A DNA stretch of 64,000 nt from Ferrovibrio sp. (GTDB taxonomy: Bacteria; Pseudomonadota; Alphaproteobacteria; Ferrovibrionales; Ferrovibrionaceae): positions 62,001 through 126,000 of the forward strand of contig NZ_JAGOLP010000001.1 of assembly GCF_017994015.1 (NCBI RefSeq), read 5' to 3'. A program made the position numbers and the translations under genes. Numbering within the stretch: position 1 is the stretch's first letter; each line of letters begins with the position of its first letter. Below are positions 44,478 to 60,200 of the stretch, in pieces. The notes below the pieces were generated by a model that had not been told where the DNA came from, searched no databases, and saw only the letters and a program-made list of their open reading frames with translations.

Positions 44478-44639
44478 GTGTCCGATAGCTCCTGTGATGT
44501 TCCGATCAGGCTGCAGCCAAACGAAAAACGCGCCCGTGCGCGACACTCGCGGACGGACGGCGATCCTCGGACCGGGGCAGTTTCCCTAACCGGAAAGCGG
44601 GCGGAATAAACCGCCTTGGGCCGGCATTGTCAAGCCGCC

Positions 44640-50096: not shown

Positions 50097-51446
50097 TCAG
50101 GTATTCATCGAATCGAAGAAGTCGGCATTGGTCTTGGAATGCTTGAGCTTGTCGAGCAGGAATTCCATCGCGTCCTGACCACCCATCGGCATCAGGATGC
50201 GGCGCAGCACCCACATCTTGGCCAGAATGCCCTTGTCGACCAGCAGTTCTTCCTTGCGGGTGCCGGACTTGGTGATGTCGATGGCCGGGAAGGTGCGCTT
50301 GTCAGACAGCTTGCGATCCAGGATGATTTCCGAATTGCCGGTGCCCTTGAACTCTTCGAAGATCACTTCGTCCATGCGCGAGCCGGTATCGATCAGCGCG
50401 GTGGCGATGATGGTGAGCGAGCCGCCCTCCTCGATATTACGCGCAGCACCGAAGAACCGCTTCGGACGCTGCAAGGCATTGGCATCCACACCGCCGGTCA
50501 GCACCTTGCCGGACGACGGCACCACGGTGTTATAGGCGCGCGCCAGGCGGGTGATGCTATCCAGCAGGATCACCACATCGCGCTTGTGCTCCACCAGGCG
50601 CTTGGCCTTTTCCAGCACCATTTCGGTAACCTGCACATGGCGCGAGGCCGGCTCGTCGAAGGTGGAGGAAATCACCTCGCCCTTCACCGTGCGCTGCATG
50701 TCGGTGACTTCCTCGGGCCGCTCGTCGATCAGGAGCACGATGAGGTAGACTTCCGGGTGATTGGCGCTGATGGCATGCGCGATATTCTGCAACAGCATGG
50801 TCTTGCCGGTGCGCGGCGGCGCCACGATCAGGGCGCGCTGGCCTTTGCCCTGCGGCGAGATCAGGTCGATAACGCGCGAGGAAATATCCTTCTTCGGTGC
50901 CGACGTGATCAGCTTCTCGCGCTTGCTCGATTCACCACGGGTCTTGATCGTCGGCGTCTTGGCCACCGCCGGCGCCGGCTCGGCTTCCTCGCTCGGCGGC
51001 AATTCCATCTTCAGCCGCTCATTCGGGTAGAGCGGCGTCAGATTGTCGAAATGCACCTTGTGGCGGGTGTTTTCCGGATCTTCGTAATTGATCGTGTTGA
51101 CCTTGAGCAGCGCAAAATAGCGCTCGCCATCCTTCGGCGCCCGGATGGTGCCTTCGATGGTGTCGCCGGTGCGCAGGCCGAAGCGGCGAATCTGATTCGG
51201 GCTGACATAAATGTCATCCGGGCCGGCGAGGTAATTAGCCTGAGCCGAACGCAGGAAGCCAAAGCCATCCTGCAACACTTCCAGCACACCTTCGCCGGTG
51301 ATTTCCAGGTCGCGATCGGCGAGCTGCTTGAGGATGGCGAACATCATGTCCTGCTTGCGCAGGGTGGAAGCGTTCTCGATCTCCAGCTCCTCGGCGAAAG
51401 CGAGCAGATCGGTGGGCGATTTGGTCTTGAGTTCTTGCAGATTCAT
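50097..51446 (-). CDS. rho: Transcription termination factor Rho
   Basis: Hexameric RNA helicase that ends transcription. ATG at 51446 gives 449 residues beginning [24 protein letters not shown], the family's N-terminal helical domain; a 50-codon extension upstream is in the leader. The CSD primary RNA-binding site contains GFGFLRS, Walker A is [12 protein letters not shown] and Walker B region [32 protein letters not shown] and the Q/R loop follow. There is an extra charged insert near ~150-180 ([16 protein letters not shown]). A promoter with a palindrome lies about 210-240 bp upstream. Confidence 0.97.
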
Positions 51447-51656
51447 GGCGGATTCGCGGAGCCTTGGATTTTTTGACCAGGAAAAGACATTTTGGTCGGG
51501 AGATTTGGGCGCCGCGGGAATGCAGGGAAACACGGCTGCCGGGTGGAAGAATGACCTGTAGGCTGCGGCAGGGACCGGCGCTAGGGCAGAAAGCACAAAG
51601 GCAGGAAACGCGGCGCATGGCCTGGACCGACCCGCAGAAACGGGGCCGATGCGGGG

Positions 51657-51713: not shown

Positions 51714-52313
51714 TCAACCAGCGAGGTTGAGCGCCAGGAAGGCAATACCGGTCAGGCCGGCAACGGCACCGGCCAGGCGGCGCGCCAGCAGCGGCTGGGC
51801 CGGATCAAACTTGCGCCAGACCAAAGCGGCGCCGGCACAGAGCGCAAACTGGATCAGCGCCAGGCCAACCAGATAGCTCAGCAGCGGCGTGGTTTCGGCG
51901 CCGACAATGCTTTCGCCAAAGGCATAACCATGGAACAGGCCGGCCACCGCCAGCAAGGCGGCAAAGCCGGCATCGCCCAGTGGCACCGCCCGCAGCAGCA
52001 GCAGGCCGAGCGCCAGCACCGACAGCGCCACTGCGATCTCGCCGCCCGGCAGGTCAATGCCCTGGATATGCAGCAGCGTGCCAGCCAGCGAAGCCAGGAT
52101 GAAAGCCAGCGGCAGCAGCAGGAAACGCTGACGGGGCGCGGCGAGCAGGCCGGCAGCAAGCAGGAAGACGAGGTGATCGAGGCCGATGATCGGATGGCCC
52201 AGGCCGGAGAGGAAGCCGGCAGCCAAGCTGTTGGGCAATTGCCCATCCATGGCGTGATGCGCGAAAGCAGGCATAGCAAAAAACAGCGTGGGCAAGGCCA
52301 GCAAGGCGCGCAT
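51714..52313 (-). CDS. HupE/UreJ-family metal permease
   Basis: A 199-residue membrane protein starting at the ATG at 52313 with a signal-like first helix (MRALLALPTLFFAMPAFAH). The family signature HPIIGLDHLVFLLAAGLLA near 45-63 is intact, as is the FHGYAFGESIVG motif near ~125; six or seven helices in all. HupE and UreJ carry nickel or cobalt for hydrogenase or urease; neither enzyme is in the window. Being divergent from a copper-type locus, it might import cobalt (inference from cobalt/B12 genes elsewhere in the window). Confidence 0.88.
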   Translation of the reverse strand: MRALLALPTLFFAMPAFAHHAMDGQLPNSLAAGFLSGLGHPIIGLDHLVFLLAAGLLAAPRQRFLLLPLAFILASLAGTLLHIQGIDLPGGEIAVALSVLALGLLLLRAVPLGDAGFAALLAVAGLFHGYAFGESIVGAETTPLLSYLVGLALIQFALCAGAALVWRKFDPAQPLLARRLAGAVAGLTGIAFLALNLAG

Positions 52314-52441
52314 GGATTTTCTCCGTCTATATGGTGCGGCAAGGCTAGCCGCTCCCGGCAGCCGCGTCAAACGCTAGCGCTGTATACACTGCGACTTCCT
52401 GTCGCTTGTGCCGCTGCGCTGAAAGTTGTTACTTCTGCGCC

Positions 52442-52879
52442 ATGCTGCCGCTATCCAGCCGTGCCATCCAGACCCCGCACCATCGCCTGATGGCGTGGCT
52501 GGGCCTGCTGGCCTTGCTGTTCCATAGCCTGCTGCCGCTAACCTATCACAGCCTGCAACAGCGCAATGCGGCCAATGCCGGTTTTGACAGTATTGTAATC
52601 TGTACCGCCTATGGCATGCGCACGATCCAGATCGGCGCCGACGGCCAGCCGCTGGCGGCGGATGAAACCCCGGATCAGGACGGCAAGGGCCAGCCGGCGG
52701 CGCGTTATTGCCCGATCTGTCTCGGCGCGCAGCAGGGCTTTGCCATCCTGCCGGCAATGCCGCTGCTGGCGATGCCGGTGATGCTGGAAATCCTGCGTCA
52801 TTCGGTCTGGTCGGCCGCACCGCCGCCGGAATTAACCCAACAACGGCCGCATGCGCGCGGCCCACCCGCCAGCCTCTGA
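52442..52879 (+). CDS. DUF2946 protein
   Basis: A 145-residue protein with an N-terminal membrane helix (LMAWLGLLALLFHSLLPL) and a later hydrophobic stretch (LPAMPLLAMPVMLEIL). The central CTAYG...CPICLGAQQG is the family signature: DUF2946 proteins carry conserved Cys and are typically found with copper-related genes and TonB receptors. Probably exported or membrane-anchored and metal-binding. First gene of a rightward group; ycnI-pcuAC follows 62 bp later. The upstream gap contains the palindrome TGTATACA (52381-52388). Confidence 0.78.
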   Translation: MLPLSSRAIQTPHHRLMAWLGLLALLFHSLLPLTYHSLQQRNAANAGFDSIVICTAYGMRTIQIGADGQPLAADETPDQDGKGQPAARYCPICLGAQQGFAILPAMPLLAMPVMLEILRHSVWSAAPPPELTQQRPHARGPPASL

Positions 52880-52941
52880 ACCTGCTTTCGCTGCGCCGCC
52901 TGTCTACCGGCGCATCTGCTTCGTTTCAGAGGATTCTCACC

Positions 52942-53901
52942 ATGACATTCAAGTTCCATGGCGGCGCCAGCGCCGCTTTCCTGTCTGCCCTGCTGCTGAG
53001 CCACACGGCCGCCGCCCATGTGGTGGCCGATCCGGCCGAGGGCGCTGCCGGCAGCTATTTCCGCACGGCTCTGCGGGTTGGCCATGGCTGTGGCACTTCG
53101 CCCACCACGGCGCTGAAGGTTTTGCTGCCCGATGGCCTCACCACGGTACGGCCACAGGCCAAGCCGGGCTGGCAGATCGAGATCGAAAATACCAAACTGG
53201 CGCAGCCGGTGGATGCCGGCCATGGCCGCAAGACCGATACCGTGACCAGCGCCATCACCTGGCGTGGCGGTAACCTGCCAAACGAGCAGTTTGATGAATT
53301 CGGCCTCAGCCTGAAACTGCCGGAACAGGCCGGCAAGCCGCTCTGGCTGAAAGTGATCCAGACTTGCGCCAGCGGCGAGTTGCGCTGGGAGCAGATCCCG
53401 GCCGCCGACCAGGATGCCCATGCGCTGGAGCGCCCGGCGGCATTGATCCGGGTTGCCGGCGGCAAGGCCGACAGCAAGGCCGCGGCCAGCATCGGCATGA
53501 TGCGGATTGAACAGCCCTTCGCCCGCGCCACCCCGGCCAAGATTGGCGGCGCCTTCATGACCCTGGTGAATACCGGTGCCGGCAGCGACAAACTGCTGAA
53601 AGCCGCCTCGCCGGTGGCCGAAAGCGTGGAGCTGCATACGCATATCAAGGAAGGCGATGTGATGCGCATGCGCGCCGTGCCCGGCATCGAGATTGCCGGC
53701 AATGGCCGCACCGCGCTGGAGCCGGGCAGCTATCATGTGATGCTGATCGGGCTGAAACAGCCGCTGAAAGAAGGCAGCAGCTTCCCGCTGACGCTGACTT
53801 TTGAACAGGCCGGCAGCGTGACGCTGGAGGTGCCGGTGGTGAAAGCCGGCGGCAGTCCGGAAGCTGGCAGCCATGCCGGCCACGGCGGCCATAAACACTA
53901 A
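52942..53901 (+). CDS. YcnI (DUF1775)-PCuAC fusion, periplasmic copper protein
   Basis: A 319-residue exported protein. After the signal peptide (to ~25), residues ~26-165 form a YcnI/DUF1775 domain, beginning with His26 in AHVVADPAEGAAGSY, where the mature N-terminal His may bind copper, and containing VGHGCGTSPT. Residues ~185-305 are a PCuAC domain with MRIEQPFARATPAKIGGAFMTL, HTHIKEGDVMRMR and YHVMLIGLKQPL, which together supply the His/Met copper ligands. The C-terminus is His-rich (SHAGHGGHKH). It probably delivers copper in the periplasm. 39 bp before a TonB receptor. Confidence 0.88.
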   Translation: MTFKFHGGASAAFLSALLLSHTAAAHVVADPAEGAAGSYFRTALRVGHGCGTSPTTALKVLLPDGLTTVRPQAKPGWQIEIENTKLAQPVDAGHGRKTDTVTSAITWRGGNLPNEQFDEFGLSLKLPEQAGKPLWLKVIQTCASGELRWEQIPAADQDAHALERPAALIRVAGGKADSKAAASIGMMRIEQPFARATPAKIGGAFMTLVNTGAGSDKLLKAASPVAESVELHTHIKEGDVMRMRAVPGIEIAGNGRTALEPGSYHVMLIGLKQPLKEGSSFPLTLTFEQAGSVTLEVPVVKAGGSPEAGSHAGHGGHKH

Positions 53902-53940
53902 ATAAAACCAAAAAAATCTTTTTCCAGGGGAATTCACGCC

Positions 53941-56058
53941 TTGAATCCGTCCTCTATCCGCGCGCGCGTCGAAAAGACGTTGCCGCGCCTCGCCCTTGCC
54001 TTGTTTGCTTCCGCCAGCCTGCTGGCCCTGTTCAGCGGCGCGGCACGCAGCCAGACCACGCTGCCCGCCGTGACCGTGCAGGGCCAGGCCGAATCTGACA
54101 GCCTGACCACACCGAATGAAACCGAGGCCCGCCGCAGCCTGGAGAAAATTCCCGGCGCGGTGGGTTTTGTCAGCGAAGCGGAAATCCGCGACGGCCGCAG
54201 CGCCACGGTGAAAGACCTGCTAGATTATGTGCCCGGCGTGTTTGCACAGCCGAAATACGGCCAGGAAGATGCCCGCCTCTCGGTGCGTGGCTCCGGCCTG
54301 TCGCGCAACTTCCATCTGCGCGGCATGCGCCTGCTGCTGGATGGCGTGCCGATCAATCAGGCCGATGGCGCCGGCGATTTTCAGGAAATCGACCCGCTGG
54401 CTTTGCGTTATATCGAAGTCTACAAGGGCGCCAATGCGCTGCAATTTGGCGCTGCCGGCCTGGGCGGTGCGGTCAATTATGTTTCCCCCACCGGGCGTAG
54501 CAATCCGGGTTTCCTGACCCGCCTGGAAGTCGGCTCGTTTGAAACCCTGCGCACGCAGCTTGCCGCCGGCCAGGCCGAGGGCGCTTTTGACTATTATGTC
54601 TCCGGCAGCTACGGCCATGCTGAAGGCTACCGCGATCATACCGATCAGGATTATGCGCGCCTGAACGGCAATGTCGGCTATCGCTTTGGCGATGGCGCCG
54701 AGACGCGCTTTTACCTGAGCGCCAACAGCATCAACCAGAAAATCACCGGCAGCCTGACCCGCAACGCTGTTTTCGCCACACCGGAATCGACGGTGGAAGG
54801 CAATTTCGGCCACAACCGCAACAACACCAAGCGCGACATCAATTCCCTGCGTGTTGCCAACAAGACCACCTGGCTGACCGATAACGGCGATTTCACCCTG
54901 GGGGTTTATTACGCCAACAAGGAATTGTTCCATCCGGTGATCTTCAGCCCGTTCTTCGGCATCGTGATCGAGAATGAGGAAAACAATTACGGCGCTTATG
55001 CGCGTTACACCCAGAGCGGGCTGCTCTTTGGCAACCGCAACGACCTGGTGCTGGGGGCGCATTATTTTGGTGGCGTGAACCGCGCCCGCACCTTCAACAA
55101 TGTGGGTGGCTCACGCGGCGCGCTGGCAAGCGATGCCGACCAGATTTCCGCCAATGCGGAAATCTATGCCGAGAATGCGCATTATGTGGCGCCCACACTG
55201 GCTCTGGTGACCGGCGCGCAGGGTAGTTTTTCGGAACGAAATCTGGAGGATAAATTCCTCTCCGATGGCGACAATTCCGGCAGCCGCAATTTCTATGCGG
55301 TGAACCCCAAGCTGGGCCTGCGCTGGGATGTGACGCCGGGCATTCAGGTTTTCAGCAATCTCAGCCTGGCCAAGGAAGCCCCGCCCTTCTCGGAGCTTGA
55401 TCCGGCCAGTTCCGGCGCGGGCCTGTTTCCGCTCAAGGCGCAGAAATCCACCACGCTGGAAATCGGCACGCGCGGCAAAAACGGCGATTGGGGCTGGGAT
55501 GCGGCGCTCTATCGTTCCTGGCTGCGCGATGAAATCCAGCAGGTGCTGATCGGCACCAGCGACGAGGCGCGCAACCTGGACAAGACAATCCATCAAGGCC
55601 TGGAACTGGGCGGCGACTGGGTGGCTTTGCGTAATGCCGTGGCGCAGGGCGACAATGTGACCACGCGGCTGGCCTACACCTTCAGCGACTTCCATTTCGA
55701 CAATGACGCCACTTTCCGCGACAATAAAATCCCCGGTGCGCTACGGCATTATCTACGGGCGGAACTGCGTTATGCCAGTGGCGCCGGCTGGTATGTGGCG
55801 CCGAATCTGGAATGGGTGCCGGAGGCCTATCATGTTGACAATGCCAACACCACCAAAACGGCGGCTTACGCATTGCTGGGCATGAAGGCCGGTTATGATT
55901 ACGGCAACGGCCTGAAATTTTTCCTCGATGGCCGCAACCTGCTCGACAAGACCTACATCTCCAATGTCAGCGTCATCTCAACCGCCGCCAACGGATCGCT
56001 GCTCTACAATCCGGGCGACGGCCGCGCCGTCTATGCCGGCGTGGAATGGCGTTTCTGA
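53941..56058 (+). CDS. TonB-dependent outer-membrane receptor (FecA-like; probable metal uptake)
   Basis: A 705-residue receptor; signal peptide about 1-37, a TonB box near TLPAVTVQ, plug domain with VKDLLDYVPGVFAQPKYGQEDARLSVRGSGLSRNFHLRGMRLLLDGVPINQADG and a 22-strand barrel ending GVEWRF with terminal Phe. It starts at TTG with AGGGGAA upstream. Position after DUF2946 and YcnI-PCuAC points to copper or a metal complex as substrate, though the plug resembles siderophore receptors; iron chelates cannot be excluded. Convergent with btuB, 7 bp away. Confidence 0.88.
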   Translation: MNPSSIRARVEKTLPRLALALFASASLLALFSGAARSQTTLPAVTVQGQAESDSLTTPNETEARRSLEKIPGAVGFVSEAEIRDGRSATVKDLLDYVPGVFAQPKYGQEDARLSVRGSGLSRNFHLRGMRLLLDGVPINQADGAGDFQEIDPLALRYIEVYKGANALQFGAAGLGGAVNYVSPTGRSNPGFLTRLEVGSFETLRTQLAAGQAEGAFDYYVSGSYGHAEGYRDHTDQDYARLNGNVGYRFGDGAETRFYLSANSINQKITGSLTRNAVFATPESTVEGNFGHNRNNTKRDINSLRVANKTTWLTDNGDFTLGVYYANKELFHPVIFSPFFGIVIENEENNYGAYARYTQSGLLFGNRNDLVLGAHYFGGVNRARTFNNVGGSRGALASDADQISANAEIYAENAHYVAPTLALVTGAQGSFSERNLEDKFLSDGDNSGSRNFYAVNPKLGLRWDVTPGIQVFSNLSLAKEAPPFSELDPASSGAGLFPLKAQKSTTLEIGTRGKNGDWGWDAALYRSWLRDEIQQVLIGTSDEARNLDKTIHQGLELGGDWVALRNAVAQGDNVTTRLAYTFSDFHFDNDATFRDNKIPGALRHYLRAELRYASGAGWYVAPNLEWVPEAYHVDNANTTKTAAYALLGMKAGYDYGNGLKFFLDGRNLLDKTYISNVSVISTAANGSLLYNPGDGRAVYAGVEWRF

Positions 56059-56065
56059 TTAGAGA

Positions 56066-58069
56066 CTAAAAATCCAGCCCGAGCCGTGCCATCGCGGTGC
56101 GGCCGGGCTGGGGATAGTAATTATAGCTGCCATAGGTGGTGGCGCTGGCGACACTGTAATCATAATAGGTCCGATCCAGCAGATTCTGCACCGCCAGCGA
56201 CCAGCGCAGGCGATTATCAAACGCGCCGCTCAAGCGCAGATCCAGCAGCACATGGCCAGGAATTTGCGGCTGGAAATTGCGCTCGTCATTCTCCATGCGG
56301 CGCGCACTGAAAAAACGCGCATCCATATCCAGCAGCACCAGCTTGGGCAGGATATCCCACGAGAAACCGATATTGCTGGTCCATGTCGATACCAGCGGCA
56401 CCCGCTTGCCGGCATTGGCGCCCTTGCGGAATTCGGCATCAATATAGCCCGCACCAGCGCGCAGCTTCAGTTCCGGCAGTAGCTGATAATCGCCACTGGC
56501 CTCAATGCCACGCCGCTCGGTCGGGTCGAGATTGCGATTGGTGAAATTCACCGCATTGAACGCCAGTTCGTTTTCCAGCCGCATGACATAGGCGCTGAGG
56601 CGATAGCCGGCGGCACCAGCCTTGCCCTGGAAGCCCAGTTCCACGTCCTGCGAGGTCTGGGTTTGCAGCCGGAAATTGGTTGGGCTGCCCATGCCGATAC
56701 GTTCATCCAGGGTTGGGAAGCGGAAGCTGCGCCCGGTGCGGCCAAACACTTCAAAGGCCGGCGCGAACCGATGTTCGAAGCCAAGATGATAGGCATAGTC
56801 GGTGGCTTCGTCATCAAACGGTGCGCCTTGCGAGCCGAAACCGCCGCCCGGCGCGGTGGCATCATAACGATCCCGCGCCGAAACCTCGGTGCGCTGCAAA
56901 CGCAGGCCAGCGGAAAGGTCGGTGGCGGCGGTCACCGCCAGCGTGGATTGGCCATACAGCGCCAGGCTCTGCTGCTCGGCATCGTAGCGATGGATCGGCC
57001 GGTTGCCGGCGCGTTCCTGACGATCGGATTCGTAATCCGCATTATAGAGATCAAGGCCGAGGATCGAATTGAGGCCAAGCTCAAACGGGCGGTTTTGCAG
57101 CGTCAGGCGTGGCGTGAAGGAATAGGTGGTGAGTTCGGTATCAACATAGGATGGGAAACCGGACTGATCAAAATAGGCATCCTGCGATTTGCGCCGTACG
57201 CCGGCATCCAGCACCAGATCGGCATGGTTGCCGATCAGCCAAGTGCCGCCGATGGTCAGATTCTGGCCCTGCTTGTTGGCATAATCATAGGGATTGGTGG
57301 CACCCCGGGGATGCTGGCCGGCCAGCCGCGAGCGGCGCTCGCCGGGCAGGCCAAGCTGCTGGTCGTCGAGCGAAAAATTCATATAGAGATCGCCGAAATC
57401 CAGCCGGCGGCGAATTTCGCCATTGGCATTGCGCTGCAACAGCTTGTTATTCTGGCGGTAGCCGTCGCTATTGGCAAAGCTGCCATAGGCGCTGAGTTCA
57501 AAGCCATCGATGCTCTGCCGCGCCGAAGCGGCGGCTTCGCGCTGGCCCAATGAACCGATGCCGGCATCCAGGCTGTAGCCCGGCCGCGCCGCGCCCGAGG
57601 TGACGATATTGATCACGCCGCCCATGGCGCCATCGCCATACAGCACGGCGCCGCTATTGCCGCGCATCAGTTCGATCCGCTCGATGCCGGCCTTGGGCAA
57701 GGCGGCAAAATCGATGCCGGCCAGATCAAGATCATTGAGCCGGCGGCCATTCACCAGCACCAGCGTGTTGGCCGAAGCCGTGGCGCCGAAGCCGCGCATA
57801 TCGACTGTGGTGCCGGCGCCGCCAACCCCGCCATAGAGGCTGCGCAACTGGATGCCGGATTGGCGGCCAAGCACGTCCTGGATCGTCTCGCCCGGGCTGC
57901 GCTGGATTTCTTCATAGCCGATCACACTGGTGGCAACGCCGGTGATGCCGTCGCCAAGCCGGCTGGCGGTGACCAGCACCGGCGGCAATTCAGCATATTG
58001 CTGCGCCAGCGCCATATTTGGCGCCAGGAGGGACAGAGTGAAACAAAGTGAATAACGGTAGGTCGGCAT
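56066..58069 (-). CDS. btuB: TonB-dependent vitamin B12 receptor BtuB
   Basis: A 667-residue outer-membrane receptor. The ATG at 58069 with AAGGAG upstream gives a signal peptide ending ALAQ; ELPPVLVTASRL is the TonB box, followed by the plug (PGETIQDVLGRQSGIQLRSLYGG, VLVNGRRLNDLDLAGIDFAALP, IERIELMRGNSGAVLYGDGAMGGVINIVT) and a barrel ending ARLGLDF. Its leader contains a cobalamin riboswitch, the main reason for assigning B12 (or cobinamide) rather than another substrate. A stem near 58091-58108 just before the start may hide the ribosome-binding site. Confidence 0.92.
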   Translation of the reverse strand: MPTYRYSLCFTLSLLAPNMALAQQYAELPPVLVTASRLGDGITGVATSVIGYEEIQRSPGETIQDVLGRQSGIQLRSLYGGVGGAGTTVDMRGFGATASANTLVLVNGRRLNDLDLAGIDFAALPKAGIERIELMRGNSGAVLYGDGAMGGVINIVTSGAARPGYSLDAGIGSLGQREAAASARQSIDGFELSAYGSFANSDGYRQNNKLLQRNANGEIRRRLDFGDLYMNFSLDDQQLGLPGERRSRLAGQHPRGATNPYDYANKQGQNLTIGGTWLIGNHADLVLDAGVRRKSQDAYFDQSGFPSYVDTELTTYSFTPRLTLQNRPFELGLNSILGLDLYNADYESDRQERAGNRPIHRYDAEQQSLALYGQSTLAVTAATDLSAGLRLQRTEVSARDRYDATAPGGGFGSQGAPFDDEATDYAYHLGFEHRFAPAFEVFGRTGRSFRFPTLDERIGMGSPTNFRLQTQTSQDVELGFQGKAGAAGYRLSAYVMRLENELAFNAVNFTNRNLDPTERRGIEASGDYQLLPELKLRAGAGYIDAEFRKGANAGKRVPLVSTWTSNIGFSWDILPKLVLLDMDARFFSARRMENDERNFQPQIPGHVLLDLRLSGAFDNRLRWSLAVQNLLDRTYYDYSVASATTYGSYNYYPQPGRTAMARLGLDF

Positions 58070-58154
58070 CGCGGGCTCCTTGAGCCTGAGGGTGACAGAT
58101 CTGCCACCGCTGCGTATGCCGCTCCGTATGGTGCTCCCGCCCATCGGTTGGGTG

Positions 58155-58315
58155 ACTGTGCCGGCAGGTCTCCTGGCTCGCGAATCACCGTCCCTTGCGC
58201 CAGCCTTCCCGGTTGCCCAGTGACTTTAATTGCGCGGACTCATCGCTCACAGTTGCGGGATCAGCCCCGGATTGACCATCCAACAGATGGCCTACCGTGT
58301 TCCCTCTTGCCTCCA
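58155..58315 (-). ncRNA. Cobalamin riboswitch
   Basis: On the minus strand the conserved elements occur in the right order: GGGAACACGGT near the 5' end, GATCCCGCAACTGTGAGCG (core J6/3), GTCACTGGG, CCGGGAAGGC, and the B12 box AGCCAGGAGACCTGCC at 58163-58178. These are the consensus elements of the adenosylcobalamin riboswitch class. It lies about 90 nt upstream of btuB and would repress it when B12 is abundant. The outer limits are approximate. Confidence 0.95.
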
Positions 58316-58353
58316 CGCTGACCAAAGATCAGCGCAGAACCGACAGCGCCGCG

Positions 58354-58381
58354 ATCATACGCGGGAATGTGATCGGGTCAA
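58354..58381 (-). promoter_or_regulatory. btuB promoter
   Basis: TTGACC (58376-58381), 16 bp, TATGAT (58354-58359) on the minus strand, placing transcription start near 58347, some 30 nt before the riboswitch. The -35 lies 4 bp from the -35 of the divergent ABC-transporter promoter. Confidence 0.6.
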
Positions 58382-58414: not shown

Positions 58415-58442
58415 CCGGCAGGTTTTCCGTTCAGAGGCAGGC

Positions 58443-60200
58443 ATGGACAAGCTCAAGGCGTTCTTCCGCGATTTCTGGCATATCGCCAAGCCCTACTGGA
58501 CCCAATCGGATGAAAAGCTGGTGGCCTATGGCCTGCTGGCAGCGGTGGTGGCGCTGAATCTGGCCTCGGTCGGCCTCAATGTCTGGTTCAATTTCTGGTA
58601 CAATAATTTCTATAATTCGATCCAGGAAAAGGATTTTGAGGCCTTCAAAAACCTGCTGCTGCAATTCAGCCTGGTGGCGGCAGCCTTCATCTTTGTGGCG
58701 GTGTATCAGCTTTATCTTGGCCAGATGCTGCAATTGCGCTGGCGCCGCTGGCTCACCGAAAAATGGCTCGGGGAATGGCTGCATGGGCAGCGCTTCTACC
58801 ATATGCAGCTCTTTGGCCTTGGCACCGACAATCCGGATCAGCGCCTGGCCGAAGACCTCAAATTGTTCACCGGCTACTCACTGAATATCAGCCTCGGCCT
58901 GTTGAGCGCCGTGGTGACGCTGTTTTCCTTCCTGCATATCCTTTGGGAATTGTCGGGCGATCTGGCCTTTGCACTCGGCGGCCTGGATATCCGCATCCCG
59001 GGCTACATGGTGTGGGTGGCATTGGTCTATGCCATCCTGGGCACCTGGCTCACCAACCGGATCGGCCGGCCGCTGGTGGGGCTGAATTTCCACCAGCAAA
59101 GGTTTGAGGCTGATTTCCGCTTCCATCTGATCCGGCTGCGCGAAAATGCCGAAGGCGTGGCGATGCAGCGTGGCGCCCTGGTGGAACAGCATGATCTGCT
59201 GGGCCGTTTCAGCCATGTGGTGGGCAATTATCTCAAGATCATGGCCAAGCAGAAACAACTGACCTGGTTCACCGCCGGCTATGGTCAGGTGGCGGTGGTG
59301 TTTCCGTTCATTGTTGGCGCGCCGCGCTATTTCCAGGGCAGCTTGGCGCTGGGCGGCCTGATGCAAACAGTATCGGCCTTTGGCCAGGTGCAGAGCGCGC
59401 TGAGCTATCTGATCAGCGCCTATGTCGATATCGCCGAATGGCGTGCCGTGGTCAGCCGCCTGACCGGCTTCCAGGCCGGCATCACCGAAGCCGCCAGGTT
59501 GGCCGCCAGCAGCGGCATCCAGATCAAGGATGACGCAGCAGGCATCAGCGTGCCGGCCCTGACCCTGGCGCGGCCCGATCTTGCCGGCCAGGCAGGTACG
59601 GCACTGGCGCGGATCGAGGATTTCCATCTCAAGCCTGCCGAGCATGTGCTGCTGCAAGGCGGCTCGGGCAATGGCAAGAGCACGCTATTGCGCGCCCTGG
59701 CCGGGCTGTGGCCGTTCGGCACGGGCGTGATACACCGCCCGGCCGCCGAACAATGCCTGTTCCTGCCGCAGCGGCCCTATCTGCCGGTGGGTACGCTGCG
59801 CGCCGCCCTGGCCTATCCCGTGCCGGCAGAAAAATTTGACGATGCCGCCTTGCGTGCTGCGCTGGCAGCACTCGACCTCAATGCGCTGGGCGACCGGCTG
59901 GACCAGGAAGCCAATTGGGCGCAATTACTTTCCGGCGGCGAGCAGCAACGTGTGCAACTGGCCCGCGCTCTGCTGCACAAACCGGCCTGGCTGTTCCTGG
60001 ATGAAGCCACCGCCGCACTGGATCCGGCCAGCGAAGCCCGCGCCCTGGCAGCATTGGCGGCTGCCCTGCCACAGACCGGCATTTTCAGCATCGGGCATCA
60101 TGCCGGGCTGGAGCAGCATCAGCGCGTGCTGCGCCTGGAGCATGACGCCGCCAACCAACCGGCCAGGCTGTTGGCCGCAGAGCTACGGAGCCCAGCATGA
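58443..60200 (+). CDS. SbmA/BacA/ABCD-type ABC transporter (fused permease-ATPase)
   Basis: A 585-residue half-transporter of the ABC_membrane_2 family (YddA, Mycobacterium Rv1819c, eukaryotic ABCD). About six membrane helices occupy residues 20-330 with ASVGLNVWFNFWYNNFYNSIQ, LRWRRWLTEKWLGEWLHGQRFY and the conserved NPDQRLAEDLKLF. The ATPase has Walker A GGSGNGKSTLLRALAGLWP (~407), signature LSGGEQQRVQLARALL (~497) and Walker B WLFLDEATAALD. Rv1819c imports B12 and hydrophilic peptides; being divergent from btuB, this protein may move cobalamin across the inner membrane (inference). It overlaps the VOC gene by 4 bp. Confidence 0.9.
   Translation: MDKLKAFFRDFWHIAKPYWTQSDEKLVAYGLLAAVVALNLASVGLNVWFNFWYNNFYNSIQEKDFEAFKNLLLQFSLVAAAFIFVAVYQLYLGQMLQLRWRRWLTEKWLGEWLHGQRFYHMQLFGLGTDNPDQRLAEDLKLFTGYSLNISLGLLSAVVTLFSFLHILWELSGDLAFALGGLDIRIPGYMVWVALVYAILGTWLTNRIGRPLVGLNFHQQRFEADFRFHLIRLRENAEGVAMQRGALVEQHDLLGRFSHVVGNYLKIMAKQKQLTWFTAGYGQVAVVFPFIVGAPRYFQGSLALGGLMQTVSAFGQVQSALSYLISAYVDIAEWRAVVSRLTGFQAGITEAARLAASSGIQIKDDAAGISVPALTLARPDLAGQAGTALARIEDFHLKPAEHVLLQGGSGNGKSTLLRALAGLWPFGTGVIHRPAAEQCLFLPQRPYLPVGTLRAALAYPVPAEKFDDAALRAALAALDLNALGDRLDQEANWAQLLSGGEQQRVQLARALLHKPAWLFLDEATAALDPASEARALAALAAALPQTGIFSIGHHAGLEQHQRVLRLEHDAANQPARLLAAELRSPA

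Follow-up and report, generated by a model that had tools for sequence, protein, structure and literature searches.

A pcu-like copper-scavenging operon in Ferrovibrio, likely controlled by a CruR-type DUF2946 leader peptide

This work concerns a copper locus in 64,000 nucleotides (nt) of the Ferrovibrio sp. assembly GCF_017994015.1 (contig NZ_JAGOLP010000001.1, positions 62,001 to 126,000 of the forward strand; hereafter the window). Here, genes for a DUF2946 protein, a fusion of the DUF1775 (YcnI) and PCuAC domains and a TonB-dependent receptor follow one another, and a HupE_UreJ permease gene is divergent from them. Copper-scavenging operons of this kind are known from alphaproteobacteria as the pcuABCDE type of Bradyrhizobium, and the locus is the form that occurs in Ferrovibrio. 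We consider it likely that this operon is under nascent-peptide control, in which the DUF2946 leader would arrest its ribosome, the arrest would keep a helix around the next Shine-Dalgarno (SD) sequence open, copper would release the ribosome, and receptor and fusion would deliver copper. This reading builds on gene content, motifs and their spacing, synteny, a predicted helix with its recurrence in relatives and the conservation of histidines, all of which were computed.

Pfam places all four genes where a sequence-only reading of the window had put them. The DUF2946 gene starts at 52406 or 52442 and ends at 52879 (+; PF11162, 48 bits, cut-off 23.7), the fusion gene spans 52942-53901 (+; PF07987 150 bits, PF04314 125 bits) and the receptor gene, with plug and barrel, 53941-56058 (+; Pfam). 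The HupE_UreJ gene occupies 51714-52370 (-; PF04955, 126 bits, cut-off 23) with a likely start at 52313. Both the CPICL motif of DUF2946 and the His-rich tail of the fusion, on which the sequence-only reading drew, can be read directly in the sequence. Furthermore, the fusion carries the PCuAC copper ligands H-X10-M-X21-H-X-M, starting at residue 232, and is presumed to be an exported copper chaperone with a His-rich tail. The order rho-HupE-DUF2946-fusion-receptor is conserved in 8/8 other Ferrovibrio regions, and the fusion is matched in 9/10 genomes of the genus (that of the window counted), the missing one being a genome of 72% completeness. Hence, the arrangement goes beyond chance.

The DUF2946 leader and its junction with the fusion gene

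For the DUF2946 gene, the best reading is a putative copper-sensing regulatory upstream open reading frame (ORF) of the CruR/CutF kind rather than a transport component. It is the first gene ahead of the copper genes, and its protein comprises 145 residues from the ATG at 52442, with a hydrophobic N-terminal segment (read by eye). The presumed copper sensor CPIC (a CXXC motif) lies at residues 90-93 (codons 52709-52720, +) and the predicted arrest motif RGPP at residues 139-142 (52856-52867, +), 45 residues further on and three residues ahead of the stop codon. Motifs and spacing match CruR (bp2923) of Bordetella pertussis, which likewise has 145 residues, CXXC at 90-93, R[AG]PP at 139-142 and copper genes downstream. 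CruR is an upstream ORF that responds to copper: expression is abolished when its RAPP is changed, and repression by copper requires its CXXC, changes of which impair copper control (PMC9426467). Arrest of CruR in vitro has been reported, and ORFs containing RAPP or RGPP precede genes of TonB receptors, YcnI and PCuAC (PMC12992588).

The motifs recur in relatives. R[AG]PP is found in 9/9 and CXXC in 8/9 Ferrovibrio DUF2946 proteins. For a wider view, the best 80 of 173 confirmed loci of a receptor profile (A1) were taken as named loci. Six of these are contigs of Ferrovibrio that also stand in the synteny comparison, and the search patterns, built on the Ferrovibrio set and a single relative, bias the loci to near relatives. 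These loci hold 72 DUF2946-like ORFs, a count that omits ORFs longer than 320 codons from stop to stop. RxPP/R[AG]PP ends at most six residues from the stop codon in 68 of the 72, the remaining four ending in QGPP, and CXXC precedes RxPP by 44-47 residues in 62.

The junction behind the leader differs from that of B. pertussis: the gap to the next gene is 62 nt in the window, as against 162 nt, and the SD sequence is predicted to form a helix with the 3' end of the leader itself. The 3' arm of this helix (52925-52932, +) overlaps the fusion gene's SD (AGAGGA, 52928-52933, +), and the 5' arm (52873-52880, +) is the end of DUF2946 including its stop codon. If the P site held the first Pro of RGPP, the ribosome would extend to about position 52878 and mask most of the 5' arm, which is predicted to lie inside the arrested ribosome's footprint or at its margin. 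Leader-to-gene gaps measure 40-62 nt in the nine Ferrovibrio junctions, and 59 other junctions have a median gap of 76 nt.

Since the helix arms cannot be aligned column by column, SD accessibility was tested for each sequence. Beside the nine Ferrovibrio junctions, a wider set comprised 65 junctions from 63/80 loci (59 of them non-Ferrovibrio), each with R[AG]PP near the stop codon and an identifiable gene following on the + strand; start codons were chosen by rule. The cost of opening the SD exceeded that of shuffled 5' parts at p<=0.05 in 5/9 Ferrovibrio and 36/59 non-Ferrovibrio junctions, and after dereplication at 75% in 2/5 and 24/36, respectively. Other junctions of the same operons served as controls (anchored 15 nt ahead of the stop codon, gaps >=30 nt, non-dereplicated), and only 4/67 of them reached this level. 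As for the position of the pairing partners, the mean probability of SD pairing is 0.62 at +0 to +16 from the P site and 0.00 at +17 to +30 (n=59), and finer bins over all 65 junctions place the partners from about -2 to +17, followed by an abrupt end. In 9/9 Ferrovibrio junctions, stalling leaves the SD more open than it is in the free state, an outcome that the removal of sequence in itself favours.

We infer the arrest, the sensing of copper, the sign of the response, the substrate and the delivery to oxidases as follows. When copper is scarce, ribosomes completing the DUF2946 leader would arrest at Arg-Gly-Pro-Pro and mask the 5' arm at 52873-52880, which would leave the SD at 52928-52933 free and allow translation of the fusion and of the receptor behind it. 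When copper is present, it would bind CPIC of the nascent leader and relieve the arrest; with the ribosome gone, the helix would close and translation of fusion and receptor would stop. Rho may additionally end transcription, as in Bordetella. The receptor would carry a copper chelate through the outer membrane, and the fusion would take the copper and pass it on to periplasmic sites, e.g., cytochrome oxidase. An inner-membrane importer would not be needed because the fusion would deliver copper to periplasmic sites.

Two published systems resemble this arrangement. In SecM-secA, an arrested ribosome likewise keeps a downstream SD open (PMC10502375), with protein export as the signal in place of the copper proposed here. 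CutF-CutO of Rhodobacter capsulatus shares the DUF2946 leader and an SD-shielding stem-loop, whereas CutF has CXXXC, the target genes are others and copper switches the target CutO on (PMC9973294). Our searches of open-licence PMC papers, only some of which were opened, yielded no report of an SD-shielding stem in copper-acquisition operons. The fit of an RNA helix to a paused ribosome at a copper-uptake operon looks new, while the operon family itself is known.

Operon family and receptor

The gene company of the receptor points to copper throughout the family. In a neighbourhood survey of DUF2946, YcnI and TonB receptor, of the kind that the sequence-only reading had proposed, with gene profiles grown from window or L100 seeds (E<=1e-4), DUF2946 is present in 69, YcnI in 61, PCuAC in 47 and CopD in 31 of the 80 named loci. 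A less biased sample of the class gave the receptor at E<=1e-100 in 19/190 genomes, from which 17 regions of 16 genomes were evaluated, leaving out the window's own, G013 (the same locus as L041, where DUF2946, YcnI and receptor are present) and a split match in G160. DUF2946 was found by profile in 11/17 regions, with an R[AG]PP end in seven of the 11. Another short ORF with this end lies just upstream in three more regions, and two of the three misses are cut by contig ends.

In Bradyrhizobium diazoefficiens (locus L100), the order is DUF2946, receptor, PCuAC, DUF1775 and CopC-CopD, with a receptor 43% identical to that of the window. This order corresponds to the pcuABCDE layout. The pcuABCDE operon of B. 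japonicum/diazoefficiens (PMC8424229) is induced by copper starvation (PMC12617631). It shares with the window the combination of DUF2946, TonB receptor, PCuAC and YcnI; the window differs in that YcnI and PCuAC are fused and precede the receptor, and in that CopC-CopD (PcuE) was not found among the neighbours scanned. Without PcuE, the window operon is called pcu-like rather than a full pcu operon. The absence of an inner-membrane copper transporter, as stated in the sequence-only reading, holds for the locus, and CopD is above cut-off in 0/10 genomes of the genus; weak matches below cut-off in 7/10 (open frames of 145-209 residues) were excluded from the counts. This family-wide gene company and the published relatives give good support to the acquisition of copper across the outer membrane.

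The receptor is PcuB-like and probably TccA-like. In Caulobacter vibrioides, TccA is needed for the activity of the aa3 oxidase, a need that added copper bypasses; its predicted copper site is His116-His321, and the copper content per cell is reported as unchanged in the mutant (PMC12617631). These two His are 205 residues apart and H125 and H331 of the window receptor 206. TccA, a putative orthologue of the window receptor, also has PccA and Sco1 as neighbours. In the 34 members of our alignment, the paired His are 203, 204 or 206 apart without exception; several looser relatives show 205, and both His are kept in 14/18 further receptors of a looser class sample. Conserved His (in at least 31/34 members) are found at 125, 233, 331, 551 and 603, with no conserved Met or Cys.

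The closest solved structure is PqqU/YncD of Escherichia coli, with 253 bits by the family profile, followed by FecA (96) and CrtA (9rvq, 74). Fold comparison agrees among the matches listed, with PqqU/YncD at Z 40.6 (root mean square deviation 2.3 over 618 residues) and FecA at Z 36. The receptor model has a mean predicted local distance difference test score of 83.9, but confidence is low in the plug loop that leads up to H125 (117-124 below 50). Residues picked out in the window receptor are F124, H125, R298, K327 and H331. Compared with the residues published for PqqU (PMC12124388), Y99 is F in 31/34 members, K274 is R in 34/34 and R304 is K/R in 34/34, while G100 and Q308, positions in or beside the ligand pocket of PqqU, are replaced by the invariant H125 and H331 in 34/34. 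The likeness to siderophore receptors that the sequence-only reading had noted is too loose, the nearest solved relatives PqqU and FecA being importers of small carboxylate ligands; a small anionic copper chelate is a plausible substrate and a dedicated chalkophore a possible one.

The receptor is of another subfamily than that of the CruR locus. It does not match the CrtA subfamily of B. pertussis with its PepSY_TM partner: 9rvq scores 74 bits with the family profile, and no PepSY_TM gene was found in the eight neighbouring proteins scanned. CrtA appeared neither in phmmer matches with the window receptor alone nor among the 50 matches listed in the fold comparison. The NCBIfam model TIGR01778 (OprC/NosA) was absent among the 14 families matched at E<=0.001.

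Alternatives and the role of HupE

Several observations weigh against control of the operon by arrest and SD helix. RNAalifold gave no consensus SD helix on an automatic alignment of the nine species, and the arms vary in sequence and place. The p<=0.05 level was missed in 4/9 Ferrovibrio junctions and 12/36 dereplicated relatives, and the five Ferrovibrio positives include the window and genome G004, which are near-identical. When the intergenic sequences were folded singly, most z-scores were modest (window -0.94, range -0.38 to -3.20, 8/9 species folded). Duplexes of a species' own arms are moderately better than cross-species ones (mean -15.4 and -11.8 kcal/mol), a matrix that is weakly informative because related arms cross-pair. 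Moreover, part of the SD partners lies inside Pro codons, which are C-rich for coding reasons, and the shuffles keep composition, not position. As for the leader, DUF2946 of locus L035 (9372-9887) retains RGPP and has lost CXXC, the R[AG]PP end is missing from 4/11 DUF2946 that the profile found in the class sample, and the pattern for this end also matched two ORFs in irrelevant places. CutF-CutO responds to copper with the opposite sign. Lastly, deletion of pcuB in B. japonicum is reported to have no detectable phenotype (PMC12617631).

With the same operon and upstream ORF, control might instead come from termination by Rho within the leader, as for CruR, the SD helix being incidental. Such termination has been shown for CruR (PMC9426467), and the alternative is conceivable, if unlikely: the gaps in Ferrovibrio and elsewhere are short against the 162 nt of B. 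pertussis, and SD pairing is much more frequent than in the control junctions. Rho termination and the SD helix could also act together as two layers. The rho gene itself (50097-51596, -) lies beyond HupE and adjoins the copper operon in 8/8 congeneric regions, and in Bordetella Rho takes part in control by CruR. As rho is a housekeeping gene, this neighbourhood proves nothing for Rho-dependent control and is probably a coincidence.

HupE, which the sequence-only reading had considered as a possible copper permease, would be improbable as the inner-membrane copper partner of the operon. In the window and in 8/8 congeneric regions, its gene and that of DUF2946 are divergent, and CopD, present in 31/80 named loci, is above cut-off in none of the Ferrovibrio genomes. 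By Rfam, 7/9 syntenic Ferrovibrio hupE copies are without a cobalamin riboswitch, the HupE-DUF2946 gap of the window included. The N-terminal-His metal-binding domain of some HupE/UreJ-2 proteins has been studied with copper (PMC12537917), and the window HupE would begin with His-His after its signal peptide (read by eye). However, the other two syntenic copies have full-length cobalamin riboswitches directly upstream, between hupE and the copper leader (L036 9226-9437, -, 116 bits; L040 8057-8325, +, 105 bits), and the family is described as nickel/cobalt-related (PMC9973294). Furthermore, the HupE profile found none in the DNA examined around the 74 non-Ferrovibrio loci of the receptor, and the 6/80 named loci with HupE are all Ferrovibrio. 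CopD and HupE never occur in the same locus, which may reflect phylogeny only.

The window HupE would more likely be a permease for cobalt (or nickel) that has its upstream region in common with the operon and stands outside the copper machinery. For the window, the cobalt reading rests on homology because this copy is without a riboswitch. A further, better-scoring HupE is encoded in 9/10 genomes of the genus, near CobN in five of these nine. NiFe hydrogenase was found in 0/10. Urease alpha is above cut-off in 9/10 by the tally of the tool (strong in eight, including the window's genome, a weak partial match in G009, none in G004), and a nickel role of a HupE paralogue is thus possible.

The sign of the response could also be that of CutF or CopL, with copper inducing arrest and the genes switched on for detoxification, so that fusion and receptor would handle excess copper. 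CutF likewise uses an SD-shielding stem-loop (PMC9973294), and DUF2946 homologues head resistance operons, the second copy of the window's genome among them. This sign is nevertheless improbable, since the downstream genes encode an import receptor and chaperone domains, neither oxidase nor efflux, and the leader has the motifs and spacing of CruR, whereas the second DUF2946 is without the R[AG]PP end. The second copy (22.9 bits, just below cut-off) lies in L043 9974-14366 (contig C71, about 178.6-183 kb) and heads a copper-resistance-like set of OEP, multicopper oxidase, cupredoxin and CusF. One genome therefore seems to hold an uptake-type and a resistance-type DUF2946.

That the receptor is a transporter of pyrroloquinoline quinone (PqqU) with accessory copper genes is barely credible: PqqU/YncD is its best match by sequence and fold and the residues at 99, 274 and 304 are largely kept in kind, but the published signature (Y/F/W99, R304, R365; PMC12124388) requires R365, which occurs in 0/34 members of the alignment (a basic residue follows in many, and the register is uncertain there because identity to PqqU is 28%), the window has F, K and A at the three positions and scores 172 against a cut-off of 1200 with the NCBIfam PqqU model, two invariant His are added, and the gene company is copper-related. 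A search for PqqE was uninformative, since matches below cut-off arose in 10/10 genomes of the genus and likewise in 14/14 control genomes.

Neighbouring genes and outlook for the family

A BtuB-like receptor gene (56066-58144, -) converges on the copper receptor gene behind a cobalamin riboswitch (58146-58359, -; Rfam, 98 bits). Together with an adjacent ABC protein it was considered as a member of the copper operon and excluded; the BtuB-like gene was left outside because it lies behind a B12 riboswitch and occurs in only 2/8 other congeneric regions, with the riboswitch present in both (one of the eight regions is short). An SbmA/BacA-type ABC transporter with fused ATPase (58434-60200, +) is divergent from the riboswitch-controlled receptor gene, and a role in vitamin B12 is conceivable. 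Elsewhere in the window, Rfam matches an ffh small RNA at 44523-44574 (-, 46 bits).

With nascent-peptide control as the preferred reading, a vague 'metal locus' becomes a testable copper switch, and a working mode is suggested for the DUF2946 leader in Bradyrhizobium-type operons. The L035 leader, in which CXXC is missing, offers a natural test case for lost copper control. For HupE, cobalt is the better guess. More generally, and as a tentative proposal that falls a little short of an even chance, alphaproteobacterial copper-scavenging operons may be under the control of an arrest peptide that copper releases and that supplies the anti-SD arm from its own 3' codons, so that the paused ribosome would be the switch, as in SecM with a metal as signal and with a sign opposite to that of CutF. 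In the same proposal, the receptor would have a pocket like that of PqqU, in which basic and aromatic residues are kept and two added His next to them shift the specificity to copper chelates. These two His are put forward as the site of copper binding in a receptor family that is spread over the alphaproteobacteria.

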